A DNA stretch of 64,000 bases. Origin: Mesodorylaimus sp. YZB2_4. Taxonomy: Eukaryota > Nematoda > Enoplea > Dorylaimida > Dorylaimidae. Below are positions 15,191 to 55,737 of the stretch, one piece after another. Location of the stretch: NCBI GenBank assembly GCA_030248295.1, contig JASANH010001212.1:465516-529515 (forward strand). The letters run 5' to 3'. The translations under genes and the position numbers were made by a program. The notes under the pieces are model-generated. The model was not told the DNA's origin, did not search any database, and saw nothing but the letters and a program-made list of their open reading frames with translations. Positions within the stretch are counted from its first letter, which is position 1. Each line of letters starts with the position of its first letter.

Positions 15191-17154
15191 CTATAAGAAC
15201 CACGAATTAAAGATCCAGCAAACATGCGAATGAGAAAACAGTCCTCTTTGGGCATGAATGTTCAAAAAGTCTACGATAATAAGATGCGCCGTGTCCAAGC
15301 AACAGAAGTCGGAATTGAGGTTACCAAGGTTGCATGTGGACACGGAAGCGTGACGGACGGAAGCCTCAGCTTTTCTGGGATAATTGAAAGGGGTGCGCAG
15401 GAAAGTGAACGGGATATTGTCGATGAGACAGCTATTCATGTGAATGAGAAGCGTGTGCTTGACCAGGTGTCGAGACAAAGGAACAAGTGGAATAGGATAT
15501 GGGAGCAGGACAGGTGAGGACGTCAATAATGCAATCGGCCATACGCACTGAAGGATAGATGGTAAGGCTGTGAAGTGACCATCTATATACGTGGCATCCA
15601 TGTCCACGCTTTACATGCCTCATCCATGAATATGTCAAGAAGGTGCGACAAAGGTGCCTACATTACATATGCATTAAGGTGCGACTGCCTTCACAATACA
15701 GTCATCCTGGCAGGTAAAGCAATCAGGTAGTGCCGTATAACATGCAGGATTGCTAAAGCAGCAGCTGGGCACCATTGCTTACTCTCCTCTCCACTCGTTA
15801 GGCTCTTTTCCTTTCCACTCTTTCTGGCCGTTCTCGCACTGTGGTGACCATTGGTCATCTGGTTTACCACCGGGTCGGCCATATTCGGATCCTGAAACTC
15901 ATTTTATGTGCGGATCAGAATTCAATGATCCCTGTTTCAGTCCTAATCTCAAAAAGGCATCATCTGTTAGTCCTTACCGATCGAGCAGAGATTATCTTTT
16001 CTTTGGTCTTAATCATTTCATTCAGGTCCGAGTGAACTCGAAATAGGTTCAGCAGTCACCAATATTCGGCCCGCACAAAGGGTGCCCCTCTCTATCAGCT
16101 TATCCCGATTGCGTGACAAGCATTCGGCGAACAAAGCTCTCGCAGACTGGATTCACAGAGAAGAGCGAATAGTGAATTGTGCCGGTTGCTATGTAGTCGC
16201 CCGTTTCCAATAAACTGCCTTACCTCCCACCGTTTCTGACTAAGCCCAGGTATACACATCGATTTGTATATTAGCCTTGAGTTCGAGCAAAGAATTCTGG
16301 GACAGATCGATACATGGAAACGAGCTTGCTTCTATCGTTGCGCAGGACCCGACGGGGGTAGGGGGGGGCAGGTGGATTGACGTGACGATGGCAAGGAAAT
16401 AAAGATAAAATTTAATAGAATATACCCACCGACAGAGATGTAATTAGAAGGTTTTCCGACGATAAACCAAAGTGGTGACAGGCCGCGAATGGAAAGAGAA
16501 TACGAAAAAGACGATTGTGCCACCTTGTGCATTGCTTTGGGCCATCCGACAGCGCCAGCAATATATAGAACGGGTGAAAAATGGCTCTTTCGCGAGACTA
16601 CTCAGACAACAAGTTAATAGTGCCCTCGATAAAGCGGTAGCTATCAGCCAGGATAAATCGGAGTAATTATCCGACTATCCAGTTGTCCCAACTCAAAATA
16701 TCCGGGCAGATGTTTTGCTTTAGTGAGACCACATTGGAGACTCCTGCATTGTTTGTTTAGATCCTACATCGTGGCAAATAAATAACTGGTGCAAAAACTG
16801 AGCGACTAAATTAGGCCATTAGACTTGAATAAAGCCAAATTAGAAGGCACACAGGCAAAAACTTGTGGTTTAAGTGCCGGACTCGCTCGCCTGGATCAGC
16901 TGAAGGTTCAGGGCATCAGGGATTGAGATTCCGTGTGTGTGCGCCTCGGTTTCTAACTCTGACGTAAGTCTCATTCTGCGATACATCATGTTTGGACCAA
17001 ATTATTCCAGTCGCACTGATATTCCTAGGATTGGATTGGTTGATCCACTGACTCGGCTTTTGGGAAATATACAGCCTCAAGCCATACCGGATCGCTGATT
17101 CAAAGTGGTAGCAGGTGTACTGCTTATAATCCAAAACAATTCATGGCGCTGGTC
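15191..17154. other. No gene supported
   Basis: Apart from a possible upstream exon of the minus-strand gene near 15325-15520, I see only short unsupported frames. There are G-rich runs near 16355-16372. Composition is mixed and looks like decayed repeat sequence. Confidence 0.4.
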
Positions 17155-40900: not shown

Positions 40901-42594
40901 AAACCGCTAGAGAAACTGCATTGTATCCGAACTGTGTTCGTGATTCTGTCCGGCGAAGGACAAGCTCTGACTGTCGATCCGTACCGTTTCTACGTCAATC
41001 TGTATGCACTTCTGCCCATGATCATGCAAGAAACGTCGAGAGGTAAGATGCGGCAGGCGAATCTCCTACAGTTAGTTATGAGCTCCTAATTGAAATTGGG
41101 TAAGGCCCCTTTTTCCGATGCTATGTGTTCATGTAATAGGTGACTCCTTCAGCGGAAACAAGTCCAGTACTTAAGATGGCAGTTTTTTACTTTTATTTTG
41201 AGCAAATACAGTGGGTCTTTAGGAGGTGGTTTTTTAAACAAAAACTGCTGTACCTTAAAATTGTCGATCGAAAATCGATATAGAAAATTGCGTGTTAGGC
41301 CGGTCACTTATAATCCTAGGGCCTACAAATCGTAGTTAATGGTACCTTCTTTGCAGAGATCCAATTGAAACAATTTTCGATTTGTTACGAGTGCTTGGAC
41401 TTGATGATCAACAGGAGGAGGAAGCAGGTGAGATTGTGATGATGCTGTCGTAATTGATTTTCAAGCAGGCTGTTTTGAACGCAGGTATCTCTGTCGCGTG
41501 TGGCCGCATTCACGAAACGGCTTTGCCTATTGTGCTTGGTTATGGCTGATCCGGAATGCGCTGCTTCGTTAGTAGCCGTAAGATCATTTTTCATTGTAAG
41601 TCGAGTTGCGGGGATGAAGTGAATAGGTTAGTAAAGTGGTGATTTTCCAGGCCCACCCTCAGTTGGAATCGTTGTTGGACGATGAAGAGCGAATAAGCGG
41701 GTCTTATAGGCCTGACTTGGACGACCCGGAGCACTGTAACGCCCTTAGTACAACCATCACCAAGGAGTTGGACTTGTTGTCGGTGAGTGGATTGGATGCG
41801 TCTTTATTGTGTACTTGAAGTTCTGTGAGGAGTCAGCTTGGCCAGAGGCGAGGTCGTGGGTCTCACAAACAGTACAGGTGGAATGGGGATGAAGGAGCAG
41901 AAGTGTCATACCCATCGAGTGGGTATGACACTTCTGCTTGACATATGCTTATTATGCTTACCTATGCTTACACTTTTGCTGCTTATGCTCCTTGACCAGG
42001 GCTTAGGGTCACGGAGGAGTTGCGTGCTAGCAATTCGGGGTTTCCATACTGTAGAGCAGCAACCCTTATGCCTGGCGGACCTTGGGAAGTCGTAGAGAGT
42101 AATTGATAGTCTCCCCTTCCTAGGAGACGTCAACCCGTCGATTTGATGTTTCAGCCGCAAGTATAGTCGCAAGACTTGCCCAGTCGCAGTTGTCCCGCAG
42201 ATTTCCTACCACACACAGGCTTGGTTGCAGAGCATTTGGGCTTACATGCATCGCTTTGCCGTTTCAGGCGCATTCAAATGAGGTTATCAGACGACTGGCT
42301 TCACATGTGCGATACAAGTTGCCGTCCCAAGGACGGCATAAGTTGTCACCCGATTTGGTCACTGCTGCGCCTTCGGAGTTGCTGTCGAAGATGGCTTCAA
42401 TGACTGAAATGGCTGGTATTGCATCCGTCGGGTCTCGAAATGTGGTCAAGGAACGGCTCAAGCGTTTTCCTAAGGTACGGATTTTGCCTAGTTAACGTAG
42501 CGGCCTGCTAAGAACCAGTCCGTTTTAGGGTTCAAAGGAATCGATGGTCGAAGAACTGGGGAGAACTGTTAGTGGGATTATGAAGTTTGTGTGA
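37934..42594 (+). CDS. NOC3L: Nucleolar complex protein 3 homolog
   Basis: Fourteen exons (37934-38217, 38742-39084, 39136-39303, 39354-39447, 39530-39702, 39759-39920, 39976-40152, 40665-40838, 40895-41042, 41357-41427, 41485-41595, 41651-41782, 42268-42474, 42529-42594) give 769 residues (human 800). A highly basic N-terminus (KKKGRF ... RKLLGAW) precedes [12 protein letters not shown] and the NOC3p domain, e.g. LPHFNF-like [11 protein letters not shown]. The CBF/Mak21-type region includes [25 protein letters not shown] and [16 protein letters not shown]3 works with NOC2 in 60S pre-ribosome maturation and export from the nucleolus, and has a reported replication-initiation role in yeast. 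The exon 5 acceptor is uncertain (39529 or 39544, both in frame). Introns 1, 7 and 12 carry repeats. Confidence 0.94.
38218..38741 (+). repeat. Internally duplicated repeat in NOC3L intron 1
   Basis: Two direct copies of a motif starting GTCTCGTAGTC(A/G)TGGGAG and continuing to ATCAACCCGACGG lie near 38323 and 38521, about 198 bases apart. The block ends with a B-box-like GGGTTCGACTCCCC near 38691, so it is probably a tRNA-derived repeat. Confidence 0.5.
40153..40664. other. NOC3L intron 7, probable repeat insertion
   Basis: A 512-base intron in a gene whose other introns are near 50 bases. No coding frame; no copy recognised elsewhere in the window. Confidence 0.35.
41896..41938. repeat. 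Perfect 19-bp inverted repeat with 5-base loop
   Basis: AGCAGAAGTGTCATACCCA, spacer TCGAG, then its exact reverse complement. It lies in NOC3L intron 12 immediately upstream of a family A repeat. The transcript could fold into a stable hairpin. Confidence 0.9.
42045..42240 (+). repeat. SINE-like repeat, family A, in NOC3L intron 12
   Basis: Contains TTGATGTTTCAGCCGCAAGT and GTCGCAAGACTTGCCC, and ends with AGGCTTGGTTGCAG, which is the reverse complement of the start of the 54862 copy. Confidence 0.65.
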
Positions 42595-44952: not shown

Positions 44953-45964
44953 TCATGAATTTTTATATAAATCTCGAAAAATATGTCGTAGTTTTGAGTT
45001 GCATCCTTCACGATTTCGAGCCACTTCGATGGCCAAGAATTGTGTTCGGGGCACTGAAATATGCATTTCCGACAGAATTACTACCGTCAAATGGACGAGG
45101 GCCTCACCAAGAGTTGTGTTATCCGAATCGTACAGGCCATTCGAGTCCAATCGAAGTAGCGTACCGAAATTATAGTCTTCGATTTTTTGTTTGAATTGTT
45201 CCATGAAAGTTCGCCATTCCTGAATAGAATAGTGAATAGTAAGGGAAATCGAGGACATTGATGCCATTAAAACGTACTGTTTTGGCTTCTGGCGATTTTA
45301 AAACATCTTCAGTGACCACTTCGATCGACAGATTTGGAAACTGCTGCCTGAACTTTTTGTAGATTTCATCATCGTGTTCGCTCAGCTTGAGAAAACCAGG
45401 GTCGCACGAGATGATGAGCTGCAACAGGTTACGTGAAGCATGAGACTTGTACTGTGAGGTGAGTGGATCTTACGCTCAGATGAACTTGAGAGTTTTCGTA
45501 CGCCTTGATCGCCCACGCCGCTTCGATACTGGGCTGAAAATAAATAAAGGAACATGAAAATTGTTGGAAGAGAAAGCAGTGAGGTGAGTAACGAAGTATA
45601 ACAGCACGGATTAAAGTTAGAAATGGTCGCCTCTCCTTCACGCTAACCGCGTTCGAGGCATCATTATATTGCCCCCACCCCCCTCACCCAGAGGTTCATC
45701 GAAGGAGGATTTCAGGATTTCAGCACTGCTACCCGCAATAGACACGCCAGTAGGTCGACAACCCGAATATTCCAGGTGCAGGCACAGAAAATCAACTTAC
45801 ATCGTTGATGTATTCTTCGCCCGAACCAGATAAGGCATTGGCGATTCCATACGCTTCCGGGACACCCTGAAAATTCAAAAATCACTTGATCGTTTGATGT
45901 GACGGGCATGTTGATCACAAATAGAACTTACCACTCCTTGAATAAAATCATCTATCGACTCCAT
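44953..45964 (-). CDS. PBDC1: Protein PBDC1
   Basis: Six exons (45932-45964, 45801-45866, 45474-45533, 45278-45418, 45108-45219, 44953-45053) give 170 residues. The frame follows the PBDC1 core throughout: EEYINDPSIEAAWAIKAYEN, CDPGFLKLSEHDDEIYKKFR, DYNFGTLLRLDSNGLYDSDN and FLAIEVARNREG, each with a close vertebrate counterpart. PBDC1 (yeast YPL225W) is a small cytosolic protein; the yeast one is reported to assist folding of elongation factor eEF1A, a function assigned from the literature and not from this sequence. The repetitive acidic tail of the human protein is absent. The first exon encodes only 11 residues. The gene faces away from ARMH3. Confidence 0.93.
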
Positions 45965-49400: not shown

Positions 49401-50940
49401 CTCACGGGAGGGCACACTTCTGTTCAAGCTGGGAATGTTAGTTTAGTAAGCCAGAGCGGGCCCAGTCTCTTCGACAACCATTCAGTACATCCGTCGCCGA
49501 CCTCGCACACCTGGCTCTGGGTGACTGACCTAGTACCTTCGAGTGGCGGACACCAAACGAGTGGTGGTTCTCGAACACTAGTCGGGGAAGGACCCTCTTA
49601 TGGGGACGCCGGTGCTGGCGCAGAATGCCCTCGACTTATATACCTTCAGTGGAAGCTGCGGAGGGAAGCTATCTTGTGAATTGTTTGCTTCACGCCCTGC
49701 CTTATCATGACTGCTGGCCAGCCATAGGCAGAATGGGTTGGAAGTACAGTGCGAAAAGTGGGTCGGCATGGGAACCAGCCCACAAAATATCCTTTAAAAA
49801 AGTTGATTAAAATGCGTGTTCTTTTCAGCACTGGTCTGCCTTCTAAAATTTCTGGTAGCTCAAGAATCGCATTTATTGTCGGCGCAAGTAGAAATTTTTG
49901 TATTGTTTCAAAAAGTAAACTATTTGATAGTGATGAGCGGCTAGGATAATGATTGGCTGTTTTTTTAGATTCTGGTCATCCTGAATTTATTCATAACTTA
50001 TGGAGACACGTTTCTTCCGAATCCTGTTTCTTATGACGAACTGTATTACGAGGTGAGACGAATATTTTTATTTGGGCAAGGCTCAGATACTGTGGATTGG
50101 TTTCACCAAACCAATCTTTCACAAGTGAAGGGCTTTCGGCGTTGGTGCTTGCATCATGGGAAACTGCGGAGGAAAGCTATCCTGTGTATTGGGATGTTCA
50201 GGCTCGGCAATTTTCCATGAGGCCCAAGGATATGGGGTAAAAGAGAGTCACAATCTTTTGGACGACCTCCCCTTTGCTTGCACCATACCCACACATGTTA
50301 CTCCTGCCTGTCTATTACTTTTCAGATCATCCGGAATGCCGACGCGTTTGGAAGTCTGTATTCATTGCGTAAGTGTAGCTTTGTTGCGGTTTTGCAGTCA
50401 TTTTTACATTTTCCGACTTTTAGTTTTACGGCACAGTTCGAGCGAAGGCAAATACAAGTCGGTTGCGACGAAACTTTGCACCAACATGGTTAACATTCGG
50501 TAGGATTGCTGGGTTGATTGGGTAGGGATGGTGGTGGAGCTGTATCTGTTGTAGGGCGATCCTTAGCCATTTCCAGCCGAAGATCGAAGAGCTACATGTG
50601 TCGACGTTGACGGAACATGAGGTTAGTCGCGTCTGCTTATTTTTCTGCCATTCTGTAAAGTGGCAGTTTTGCAGATCTTTGATATTGTTCGGAATCATTA
50701 CGATTCTCTGACTCTGAAATTGCAAGAGAACTTGGACTCGTATGAACGATACAATGAACAGCCGCAGGAATCGTCTTTCTTGATTCAAATGGTAAGCGTG
50801 CTGTGGGTTGTAAGGTGGGCTGGATGACGAACGTAGTGGCCTTGCAGGTGAAAGTTGTGGCGACGGATACGCGACTGAAACTGCAAAAGACGACATTGGA
50901 TCATCAGGCGGTCCTCAAAGAACTGTCCACTATAAAGTGA
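46485..50940 (+). CDS. ARMH3: Armadillo-like helical domain-containing protein 3
   Basis: Twenty-three small exons run from 46485-46553 ([20 protein letters not shown]) to 50848-50940 (VLKELSTIK, stop) and all join in phase to 666 residues (human C10orf76 is 689). Matching blocks in order: [135 protein letters not shown] and LVNI-like MVNIRAIL. ARMH3 binds GBF1 and PI4KB and supports Golgi function; that is family knowledge. Further exons: 46613-46732, 46968-47048, 47102-47203, 47272-47364, 47432-47506, 47705-47791, 47842-47898, 47957-48064, 48123-48169, 48226-48301, 48362-48536, 48595-48653, 48710-48775, 49044-49174, 49237-49325, 49829-49914, 49969-50052, 50326-50368, 50424-50499, 50555-50621, 50675-50791. 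Confidence 0.95.
49326..49828 (+). repeat. SINE-like repeat, family B, in ARMH3 intron 16
   Basis: Most of this 503-base intron is repeat. 49490-49640 shares diverged blocks with 1050-1245 and with the body of the tRNA-derived SINE at 17480-17735 (GGGTGACTGACCTAGTAC). Confidence 0.55.
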
Positions 50941-51105
50941 TACTGAGTCTGAATTCTGCGCATAATGGTACTTAGCGGGTGTATTTATTAGTGGGCAATA
51001 AAGAAGGCATATTCTCGGATTGGTTTTGCATGTTGACTCGAGGCCATGCGCCATCAGTCTTTTGTCAATGCGTGCGAAGGTGCGCAAAGTGGTCTTGGTT
51101 TCAGC
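50941..51105 (+). promoter_or_regulatory. ARMH3-AACS intercistronic region with polyA signal and splice acceptor
   Basis: The gap is 165 bases. AATAAA occurs at 50998-51003, about 60 bases after the ARMH3 stop, and GGTCTTGGTTTCAG (ending 51104) leaves one base before the AACS ATG. This polyA-signal-then-acceptor order is what a trans-spliced operon junction shows. Confidence 0.55.
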
Positions 51106-54100
51106 ATGGAGGCTACGTCGTTGTGGTCGCCGCGTGTGCCAGTCGATTCGTTATCGCCGTATGAGCGCTTCCGTCGCAGAGTGGCGAAGAAGTTTGGCGT
51201 GCGAGTTGGTATGTTAACGTTATTCAGATTGTGATAGAGGATCGGGGCTGATTGGGCACTCTCTAGATACCTACTGGGACCTGCATAAATGGTCGGTGGA
51301 GAACCACACCAAGTTCTGGGCCGAGGTGGTTGAGTTCTGTGGCATGAAGTATTCGGGTGATTGGAAAGAGGTAAGTTTAGGGGGAGGGATACATGCGTCT
51401 GCAATAGTGATGGATTGCAGGTGGTCGATAAGAACAAAAGGATAGACGAAGTGCCCAAATGGTTCCCTGGCATGCAACTGAATTACGCTGAGAACCTACT
51501 GAGCCGAGATGACGACGGAGTGGCCATATATTATACAGGTCAGGAGGGAGCAAGTACTGCAGAACATGGAACTGGTCGAAGAGGGAGAGTGTCGTATTAA
51601 GACCAGACCAGGGACACATCTTGTTTTATCCTTAAATTCGTTTCAGGCGAGTACTTGACTGGAGAGGTCGAGCAGATCACGTTTAGAGAACTGAGAAAAA
51701 TGGTTCAAACCTACGCAGCTGCACTGAAGAACGTGGGAGTGAAGTGCGGCGACAGGGTGGCAGGTACTGTGATCTCAACACTTTTTAATTGATCTCCTTT
51801 TCGCATAACTATTGTAGGTTATATCCCGAACTGTCCCGAAAGCGTGGTTGCCATGTTAGCCACTACATCGATCGGTGGCGTGTGGAGTTCGGCATCTCCT
51901 GATTTTGGTGTTTCAGTACGGATTGCTTTCTCGAACTTTGGTGTGTTGTAATCTAAGATGATAAGATTGTGTGGCCTTTCAGGCTGTGCTAGAACGATTC
52001 GAGCAAGTCAAACCGAAGTTATTATTTAGCGTCGAGGGGGTTGTTTACAACCAAAAATACCACGATCATGTCGAGAAGTTGAAGGAAGTTGCTGCGGGTA
52101 ATGCTAGCGTTCGTATTGATCTGACCGATGCGCGTAATATCATCCGTTCTAGCACTGCCATCTGTGGAGAAGATTATTATCGTCCCTCATGTCAAGTCTA
52201 GAGAAATCATCGAAAACGGGCATGGAGAGCCCCATATCAAGCCTCATGAGGCACATGAAAAGGAATATGTCAAAAAGAGGTACGGCTCGTCATTGATTTT
52301 TTAAAATCTTATTAGTATTTTCGATTTTTCAGTGTATCGCTCAAAGAGTTCTTGGAGGGTGGGCGATTAGCCGATGGATCTTACCCTAGTTTGCATTTCG
52401 AGCACGTGCCATTCGACCATCCGTTATTCATCATGTTCTCGTCTGGAACGACGGGTGCCCCCAAATGCATGGTTCACTCGGTGGGGGTAAGTTGGTAAGT
52501 CGTGTCCATGTGCTTATCACGCATGTTTCGATGTGTTCCAGGGGACGCTTGTGAAGCACTTGGCTGAACTTATCTTACAACTGTGCCTGACTCCATCCGA
52601 CGTTATGCTTTTCTATACGACAACTGGGTGGATGATGTGGAACTGGCTGATGACGGCACTGGCAGTAGGCAAGGCTGTATATTGTCCGCTTCATCATAGC
52701 ACTTTCTTACCCGAAATCTTCAGGCTCGGCAATTGTTCTCTACGACGGGTCGCCATTTCTGCCTCATCCAGACATATTGTTCGAGTTGATCGATCAGATC
52801 GGGTAATCTATTGATACGAGATATGTTCGGTATGATGCAGGGCAAATTTACTTTTTCAGAATAACTTACCTGGGTATGGGAGCGAAGTGTTTTGCAACCT
52901 ACGAGCATAAGAAACTGAATATAAGTAAGTCAGGAGGCTTCCATTGTGGGCAATAGTCAATGGTGTCTAATTTTTTAGTGCAAACGCACAAGTTGGATAC
53001 ACTGCGGGCTGTGCTGTCGACGGGCAGTCCTCTGATGCCGCATACCTTCGAATATATTTATCGCCAAATAAAAAAAGACGTGTTAATCGGATCAATTTCT
53101 GGTGAGGACGACAGTTATCTTTTGTGCTTACTAATCGACAGATGTCTTGTGTTGTAGGTGGGACGGATATCATCGCCTGTTTTGTGGGAGCCAGTGGAAG
53201 CTTATCAGTTCACAGTGGCGAAATTCAAGCACCTTGTCTCGGATGCGCGGTTAAGTGCTACAACGAAGCAGGTACGAAAAGAATGCTGCTTTCTCGAGTT
53301 TGCGAGTTCTTACTTATAGTCCTTTACAGGCCAGGCTGTGTTCGGCGAGCGAGGTGAGTTGGTTTGCACAAAGCCTTTTCCCTCGATGCCAACTCACTTC
53401 CTGAACGACTCGGATGGAGCGAAATATCGAAGAGCTTATTTCGAGAAGTATCCAGGTAGGTGGTCTACGTTGGCAGAGTATGCAGGTGACCTAGGCGAGT
53501 CTTGTACGTTGCAGGCGTTTGGGCGCACGGAGATTATTGTATGATAAATCCGTCCACGGGCGGTATAATCATGCTGGGTCGTAGCGATGGTACTTTGAAC
53601 CCAGGCGGAGTACGATTTGGTAGTGCCGAGATATATCACGTTGGTAAGCTGTTCGGCTCCTTGCTTTTTGGGGGCACTTAATGTATGCGTTTGGTTTAGT
53701 GGAAAAGTTCGTGGAAGTGGCCGATAGTCTGTGTGTCGGTCAGAAACTTCCAGATGGTGATGAGCGTGTTGTGCTATTCTTGAAAATGGCCAGTGGATAC
53801 GCTTGTGACGAAAAATTGATTTCGAGGGTTCGGCTGAGCATTCGTGAAAGCTTGTCTGCTCGTCACGTTCCGTACGCAATTTTGCCGATCGAGGATATTC
53901 CGGTAAGAGGCGGTAGGGGCATGGGAGGGCATGATGGACTGTGCTAGTGGTGAGTGGATCGCAACTCTATTAGCGTTACTGGTGGCTGGCATATTCTTAT
54001 TGTGTCTCTGGCATTGCTCTAGTATACCACGAACGGGAAGAAGGTGGAAGTGGCCGTCAAGCAAGTACTGTCTGGCGAGAAAGTACCAAATCGCTCCGCT

Positions 54101-54208
54101 TTGGCTAACCCCCAAGCATTGGATCTGTACGTCGACATTGCAGAGCTGAGAGATACAAATGAACCTGGAGTGACCTTTAGGCGATTCAGTACTGCCTCGT
54201 TTGGGTGA
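51106..54208 (+). CDS. AACS: Acetoacetyl-CoA synthetase
   Basis: Seventeen exons (51106-51208, 51267-51370, 51421-51538, 51647-51763, 51818-51915, 51983-52097, 52153-52279, 52333-52486, 52542-52668, 52724-52802, 52860-52924, 52979-53101, 53158-53271, 53330-53455, 53515-53643, 53700-53902, 54023-54208) give 695 residues (human 672). It activates acetoacetate to acetoacetyl-CoA in the cytosol, feeding lipid and sterol synthesis. Adenylate-forming motifs are complete: [15 protein letters not shown] (P-loop), [43 protein letters not shown] and the catalytic Lys region [14 protein letters not shown]. Introns are mostly 45-105 bases. The intron after 52668 must use a GC donor (GTAG|GCAAGG) to keep frame and match the family ([12 protein letters not shown]). 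A Glu/His-rich insertion of about 20 residues follows PHVKSRE. Confidence 0.96.
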
Positions 54209-54854
54209 TTGGTCAAGTCAAGTGCGTCAATGTTTGAAGTGAGTAATCTTTGACAGCTGATAGCTGTCCCTTTTTTCAGAGCAGAGGCGGGAGTAACCTG
54301 TGCAGCGGCGCGGCACTGGAAGATGGACCTGGTGGAAAGATAAATTTATTAGGCATTGTATTCTGGGTAGTTGTGATTTCGGAACTGTGAACCGTGAACC
54401 GTGTGCTCATGACATGTGATGGGGAAATCGTCTCGCCTGTCTATTACAGCTAATAAAATGGGAATCACATTTAGCGAACACTCACTGACACTAGTGTTTA
54501 TGGAGGAACGGGAAAGATTCGGAACCAGAATTGAAATTTGAACTCACGAAAACACGGGTGGTGTAAACTTTTGTCATCCTCCACCCTTTGGTCTTGCTGA
54601 AGCTGAACCCAAAAGCCCATCTCAAGGACCAATAGGAAGACACTATGTGCACTGGTCAGAAACACCTCAGCAAGCCATTTACCAAGGTCGCTGAAGATTC
54701 ATGAATTTTCCTCGATGTAGCTGAAACCGAGGCAGGCCGCTCGCTGCCAGCTGTTATCTATGATCAGATGAACGCTCAGTCGCCGCAACCCCTCGGCTCC
54801 ATGATCGCCGTTTTAGGCCCAGTTTTTGCATGATTTATTCGCACTAGTCATACA
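54209..54854. other. AACS 3' flank, no gene seen
   Basis: An AATAAA at about 54452-54457, some 245 bases after the stop, is the likely polyadenylation signal. Beyond it I see no supported frame. Confidence 0.5.
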
Positions 54855-54861
54855 CGTTGCA

Positions 54862-55075
54862 GACTGCAACCAAGCCTGGCAGGCGTAGGAGGGAGGTGGC
54901 CGACCGAAGTCAGCGGGACAAAAACCTCCGACTGGAGCAGGCAAGTCTTGCGACCATACCTACGGCTGAAACATCAACCCGAGAGGTTGACGTCTCCCAG
55001 CCACGGGGGAGTACCGATTACTCTCTCCCACTCGCCATGGCCTACCAGGCACGAGGGTTACAAGACCACATGAAT
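54862..55075 (-). repeat. SINE-like repeat, family A (best preserved)
   Basis: Reverse orientation. Starts with CAACCAAGCCTGGCAGGCGT and ends with ACCAGGCACGAGGGTTACAA. Compared with the 1885 copy it has long identical runs, so these two are the youngest pair of the family in the window. Confidence 0.7.
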
Positions 55076-55119: not shown

Positions 55120-55737
55120 TCATCGCCGCTTGTTGCCCTGCAGTATGCCTTGCAGCTCGCTCAGCTTCATCTTCCCTCTGCCGGCCGCCATCAGCACCTC
55201 GCATCGCCGCTCCATATCCTTCGCCTCGTCGCTCGCCATCAGCCGGTCCTTGACCATTTGCTGCAACACGGCTCGCATCTTCACACGATCGATGTACAGC
55301 GTGTCCAGCAGCTGGTCCAACTTCTGCAACTAGAAAGATCCGAGTTGCGCATTGAGGCCAGGGGCGTGGGACACACCATCACCTTTACCAGTTGCCTGCC
55401 GTCTATAGTGCCCATTTGCGAGAGGTGCTGCCGCCTGCGCGTCGCCCCTCAATGACTCTTTGTACTTCTCGGCTGCAGCACGCTCCTGAACCGAAGAGGG
55501 GTTCACGAAGCGAAGAATGATCTCTTCTCCCACTTAAGCTGTATCAGCGTCTTCTGCATGTTTTCGTCGTCAAAGCTCTTCACATCGGCCAGTCGCGTTT
55601 GGACGAGGATGATCCGGGCCATCTCCACTTGCCATTGCACTTCGTCGCTGGGGTCTGATCTTGCTTAGATTCAAACAGCGCCAACCAAAAGTCTCGGATT
55701 TCCAGCGCCAGACCACTTCGTTTGGAACCTATTTAGA
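55120..55737 (-). pseudogene. Decayed coding relic, unrecognised protein, several frame breaks
   Basis: On the minus strand, protein-like segments follow one another in different frames without splice sites to explain the shifts: GLALEIRDFWLALFESKQDQ (about 55675-55737), DEVQWQVEMARIILVQTRLA to MQKTLIQLK, then GEEIILRFVNPSSVQERAAA. After a GT-AG intron-like gap (55332-55394) comes LQKLDQLLDTLYIDRVKMRA to ILQGNKRR and a TGA. Phases disagree at three joints. The segments are helical, charged and GC-rich in codon use. I do not recognise the family. Single-base assembly errors could explain some breaks but not obviously all. Confidence 0.5.

Follow-up and report, generated by a model that had tools for sequence, protein, structure and literature searches.

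The ARMH3–AACS junction of a nematode genome carries features of an operon that is probably resolved by trans-splicing

The DNA analysed here (the window, 64,000 nt) carries two adjacent genes on its forward strand, ARMH3 and AACS, together with parts of their neighbours (Table 1), and the genome to which it belongs (145 Mb in 1067 contigs) was searched as well. The exon borders of ARMH3 and AACS were set by the reading frame, the splice signals and the human orthologues. The ARMH3 model matched Pfam ARMH3_C with an E value of 4.7e-72 (profile positions 1–230 of 231, model residues 421–645), and the AACS model matched TIGR01217, acetoacetate--CoA ligase, with an E value of 1e-264 (profile positions 5–652 of 652) and also matched PDB 4wd1, an acetoacetate-CoA ligase. 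The profile matches back the identities that an earlier note, made from the letters of the window, had assigned to both genes, and both genes look real and complete. ARMH3 is a Golgi- and PI4KB-linked protein. Two similar pieces (gcggagg.aagctatc.tgtg.attg) were seen by eye at window 49650–49683 and 50160–50193, both inside ARMH3 introns (503 and 273 nt), which suggests a repeat common to the two introns. An AACS intron at window 52669–52723 has a GC-AG border.

The PBDC1 gene is divergent from ARMH3 and stands head-to-head with it, and its candidate start codon, chosen by eye at 45964, is located 520 nt before the ARMH3 ATG. Downstream of AACS, the open frame of 69 residues on the opposite strand may be the last part of a convergent gene; a Pfam search found no family match in another frame of that region. 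LRLKHQ..LTSP-like text was noticed by eye in translated frames at window 41906–42205 (−) and 54834–55073 (+), which flank the ARMH3/AACS region on both sides and point to a dispersed repeat. ARAGORN called a tRNA-Asp(gtc) at window 16055–16152 (−), and the length of 98 nt points either to an intron or to an erroneous call. The Rfam search of the window gave 0 matches at gathering scores.

Table 1. Coordinates of the features in the window and of the leader loci elsewhere in the genome.
Feature	Position	Strand	Basis or remark
PBDC1 orthologue (partial extent)	45082..45964	−	Pfam PF04669 on two ORFs
ARMH3 orthologue, predicted 23 exons, 666 aa	46485..50940	+	exon model; Pfam ARMH3_C PF08427
ARMH3's own last donor (intron 50792–50847)	50792..50797	+	score 8.26, earlier 34-intron matrix
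Weak possible donor AAA/GTGATA across the ARMH3 stop	50937..50942	+	score 3.53
Intercistronic gap	50941..51105	+	165 bases
Possible cis donor ATG/GTACTT	50968..50973	+	score 4.91; 137-nt intron to 51104
AATAAA, likely ARMH3 polyA signal	50997..51002	+	hexamer scan
In-frame ATG upstream of AACS	51046..51048	+	20 extra residues, outside family match
GGTTTCAG, candidate trans-splice acceptor	51097..51104	+	matrix score 7.94
AACS orthologue, predicted 17 exons, 695 aa, stop TGA 54206–54208	51106..54208	+	TIGR01217; PDB 4wd1
AATAAA 3' of AACS	54452..54457	+	
Open frame, 69 residues, 3' of AACS	55120..55329	−	ORF only
Candidate SL RNA gene	C50:273685 (L054)	−	leader GGTTTTAACCTCTAGTCGTAAG, GTAAG donor, AAATTTTGG
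Leader-family contigs	C5, C9, C24, C33, C50, C72, C109, C159, C254, C257, C561 twice, C865		
Leader-family locus labels	L099–L108, L045, L096		

The end of ARMH3 reads AAG TGA, with the stop codon at 50938–50940, and AACS begins with ATG GAG GCT at 51106, so that the two genes are adjacent on the same strand with a short gap, as expected for an operon. The earlier note had claimed a gap of 165 bases, an AATAAA at about 50998 and an acceptor GGTTTCAG one base 5' of the AACS ATG. All of these are present as described, except that the hexamer starts at 50997. When five hexamer variants were scanned from the ARMH3 stop onward over about 400 nt, this AATAAA was the single match. There are 60 copies of the hexamer in the window, counting both strands, and the chance of finding it in any 165 nt is therefore about 7%. 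The acceptor ends at 51104 and is followed by one C and then the AACS ATG; it is 102 nt from the end of the AATAAA at 51002, close to the roughly 100 nt looked for in an operon. No TAYYTT is present in the span from the AATAAA to the acceptor (51003–51104). This Ur motif is a feature of C. elegans and is not known to define the operons of all nematodes.

Three ATGs in the gap had been missed by the earlier note. The ATG at 51046 is in frame with AACS and has an in-frame stop upstream of it at 51034, and those at 51030 and 51068 are in other frames. The query for the TIGR01217 and 4wd1 searches was AACS with the 20-residue extension from 51046. Position 5 of TIGR01217 aligns with residue 25 of this extended protein, 4 residues after Met 51106, which places profile position 1 on residue 21, namely Met 51106. 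The alignment thus favours 51106 rather than 51046 as the true translation start of AACS.

To score the splice sites, matrices were built from the 38 modelled introns of ARMH3 and AACS, of which 37 are GT-AG and one is GC-AG. Their lengths range from 50 to 503 nt, and 31 of them are 50–68 nt long. The score of 7.94 for the acceptor at 51104 is higher than that of 15 of the 38 true acceptors and lies inside the range of the introns of both genes. The gap has 10 AGs in all, and none of the others scores above 3.02. Acceptors of this quality or better occur once per about 795 nt in the window. This frequency agrees with a rival reading in which TTTCAG stands before the ATG only by chance, AACS has its own promoter in the gap or in the last part of ARMH3, and its mRNA is translated from 51046 or 51106 without being spliced there. 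The open frame from the in-frame ATG 51046 also agrees with such an mRNA. However, the family match starts at Met 51106 and excludes the 20-residue extension, the mRNA could carry the out-of-frame AUGs 51030 and 51068, and an acceptor scoring at least 7.94 lies within 3 nt upstream of just 11 of the 2216 ATGs on both strands of the window, the AACS ATG included (32 of 2216 within 10 nt). A separate AACS promoter is rather unlikely on these grounds.

The acceptor might instead belong to an ordinary cis intron, in which an AACS 5' exon with its donor in the gap (50968) or inside ARMH3 (50848 or 50792) is joined to 51105. The introns from 50968 and from CAG/GTGAAA at 50848 (score 5.19; 257 nt to 51104) would be within the length range seen in the two genes, and the donor at 50792 has a high score. 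On the other side, 29 of the 37 true GT donors outscore 50968 and 8 are lower, and one GT per 242 nt reaches a score of 4.91 anyway, with 0.47 such donors expected by chance in the eligible 115 nt. For 50848, 9 of the 37 true donors score lower; 50792 already serves an ARMH3 intron that is required by the protein model, and every such intron would enclose the polyA signal. Another GT in the gap, AAG/GTGCGC at 51080, scores 5.82 but is just 25 nt before the acceptor. Altogether, a cis-spliced 5' exon is unlikely. Readthrough splicing from 50937 to 51105 would delete the ARMH3 stop and produce an ARMH3–AACS fusion protein, given that the frame is kept across the junction (ATA AA/C ATG). The donor for this event scores 3.53, but 32 of the 37 true donors are higher and 5 lower, GTs of at least 3.53 occur once per 133 nt, the frame would be kept by chance in one of three junctions, and ARMH3 and AACS each match their own family separately. 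We consider the fusion highly improbable. The statement of the earlier note that there is no convincing cis donor was only partly right: the donors in the gap are indeed weak, but possible donors exist at 50968 and 50937 and, within ARMH3, at 50848 and 50792, and the note was too confident about their absence.

Trans-splicing at 51104 would need a spliced leader, and both the type of the genome and its candidate leader genes were examined. The 18S rRNA of the genome (L006) holds CGCGAATAGCTCATTACAACAGC and, on the opposite strand, GGGCGGTATCTGATCGCC, both without mismatch. CGCGAATAGCTCATTACAACAGC appears as a primer in papers in which nematodes are mentioned, and we take GGGCGGTATCTGATCGCC to be its partner primer. 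With both sites of this nematode primer pair present, the genome looks like a nematode-type genome by its 18S rRNA, and the 18S letters around the primer sites are, we assume, closest to Dorylaimia. Additional 18S copies look degenerate by eye: one at L007 2480–4537 (−) has an insertion and is damaged in its 5' part, and the match at L008 1512–2719 (+) covers just 1208 nt. A search of the genome for the 5.8S family gave no match among the 39 scored of 5087 candidates.

A candidate SL RNA gene was picked by eye on contig C50, among the matches listed for the first SL-gene pattern. Here GGTTTTAACCTCTAGTCGTAAG is followed by GTAAG and a hairpin; AAATTTTGG starts at offset 69, with another hairpin behind it. 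The locus has the leader of about 22 nt, the GT donor and the Sm-like site behind them that are looked for in an SL RNA gene. The leader is 22 nt long, and 14 of its 22 letters, including the first ten consecutive ones, are the same as in C. elegans SL2 as printed in PMC548690. The hairpins are no better than modest: among 500 shuffles, stem I was reached by 167, stem II by 34 and stem III by 48 (87 with a longer cut). Shuffled sequences fold as well as the whole RNA (z −0.31 to −0.72). In the 104-nt form, the predicted minimum-energy structure has some of the Sm-like run paired to the donor region.

Overall, the SL-gene pattern searches did not exceed their controls. The first pattern gave 126 hits versus 113 in the reversed-pattern control, the second 14 versus 95, the third 24 versus 47, and the pattern allowing mismatches 89 versus 326; the last of these misses the 22-nt C50 locus because it was built with 10, not 9, free bases. 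A lax Sm expression fits 4 of the 14 hits of the second pattern (L050, L054, L055 and L057), and AATTTTGG is present only in the C50 locus (L054) among these four. Rfam RF00198 (SL1) had no match in the genome among the 50 scored of 31302 candidates, and SL1 was not among the 3 Rfam matches at E up to 10 for L045, a leader-family locus. When the C50 gene alone served as a DNA query, the sole match at E up to 10 was C50 itself. No paper in the literature searched contained any of three leader strings, and the accessible portions of PMC7346339 and PMC12964723 held no leader sequences of use. As side observations, C5:1300272–1300299, C275:96174–96201, C556:21318–21345 and C845:17932–17959 share ACATACGTTGATTTGT(C/A)TCTGCTATGGT, perhaps as a repeat, and L064 and L065, 6 kb apart on contig C57, have a common upstream sequence and a GGTTTGAAT...CTAAG/GTAAG block, perhaps as exons of duplicated genes.

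The C50 leader belongs to a family of similar loci. Among the 20 of the 89 mismatch-pattern hits that were inspected, 2 share the block of about 40 nt upstream of the C50 leader. A pattern made from this upstream block gave 21 hits (14 in the control), of which 17 were inspected and 4 were omitted as sharing another sequence, the ACATACGTTGATTTGT(C/A)TCTGCTATGGT noted above. Four of the hits, on C47, C77, C38 and C284, were dropped by eye as lacking both the block and the leader, and 13 loci remain. In these loci a 27-base core lies about 45 nt upstream of the leader with 23–27 of 27 positions matching, and the leader reads about GGTTTTATCCTCTATTCCTAAG by eye. A donor was found in the tested span of 6 of the 13 loci and no donor near +22 in the other 7; by eye, C257 has a seventh donor slightly beyond the tested span. 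The Sm-like run is present in 3 of 13 loci (C24, C50 and C72) versus 325 of 5000 random 75-mers of the window, and donor and Sm-like run occur together in C50 and C24, where C24 has a shorter run, ATTTTG, that starts at offset 43. In the 12 other loci the sequence after the leader is unlike that of C50, and some of them share a short GCGC..TTACGAT piece among themselves. The upstream block was not found in the 64,000-nt window. This composition supports the presence of one or more SL RNA genes in the genome, plus several decayed or unexplained copies. If these 12 loci are expressed, spread of the leader cassette may have occurred without the remainder of the SL RNA, its copies serving as cis leaders or unusual donors while junctions of the ARMH3–AACS type rely on one or a few true SL2-like genes; this scenario is decidedly unlikely.

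Two genes on one RNA that are cut apart, the second receiving a standard leader, are usual in nematodes. ARMH3 and AACS are probably an ordinary two-gene operon of this type, resolved by trans-splicing. The nematode-type 18S, the SL candidate, the distance of 102 nt and the acceptor beside a start supported by homology are best explained by what the earlier note suggested, an operon junction at which a leader would be trans-spliced; the possible cis donors count against it. A single promoter in the interval between ARMH3 and the divergent PBDC1 would drive a bicistronic pre-mRNA, and the AATAAA at 50997, judged by its motif, would direct the cleavage and polyadenylation of ARMH3. The acceptor at 51104 would then receive a spliced leader of about 22 nt from the SL RNA, which would remove the AUGs 51030, 51046 and 51068 and make 51106 the first AUG after the leader in the AACS mRNA.

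PMC1657053 gives about 100 bp from the polyA signal to the acceptor in C. elegans operons; for other nematodes, the distance that separates polyA site and SL site in putative operons is put at 89–838 bp. The junction is like the SL2-type operons of C. elegans described there in having both genes on the same strand, a short gap and, at the downstream ATG, an acceptor that follows the polyA signal by about 100 nt. The genome also has a candidate SL2-like leader, as in C. elegans. In contrast to those operons, the junction has no TAYYTT (Ur) between signal and acceptor, and its bicistronic precursor and AACS leader are predicted from sequence. According to PMC7986045, Trichuris muris and Trichinella spiralis have operons and several diverse leaders, three of SL2 type in each species, and their SL RNAs were searched with AT{4,6}G located 20–50 or 25–50 nt behind the leader, a pattern that the C50 locus fits. 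The median intercistronic distance reported there for T. muris is 517 bp; the 165 bases that separate stop and ATG in the present case are therefore short for the clade, which is presumed from 18S features.

A full-text literature search for an ARMH3–AACS nematode operon gave 3 papers, which looked off topic and of which none named ARMH3. Nematode operons often join unrelated genes, so the meaning of pairing ARMH3 with a ketone-body enzyme is not obvious. The junction is probably a new operon of a well-known kind that would not surprise a nematode specialist; what is unusual is the leader family. If the operon is real, one more operon and a candidate leader would be on record for this nematode genome, and 51104/51105 would provide a clean test site for which leader resolves its operons.
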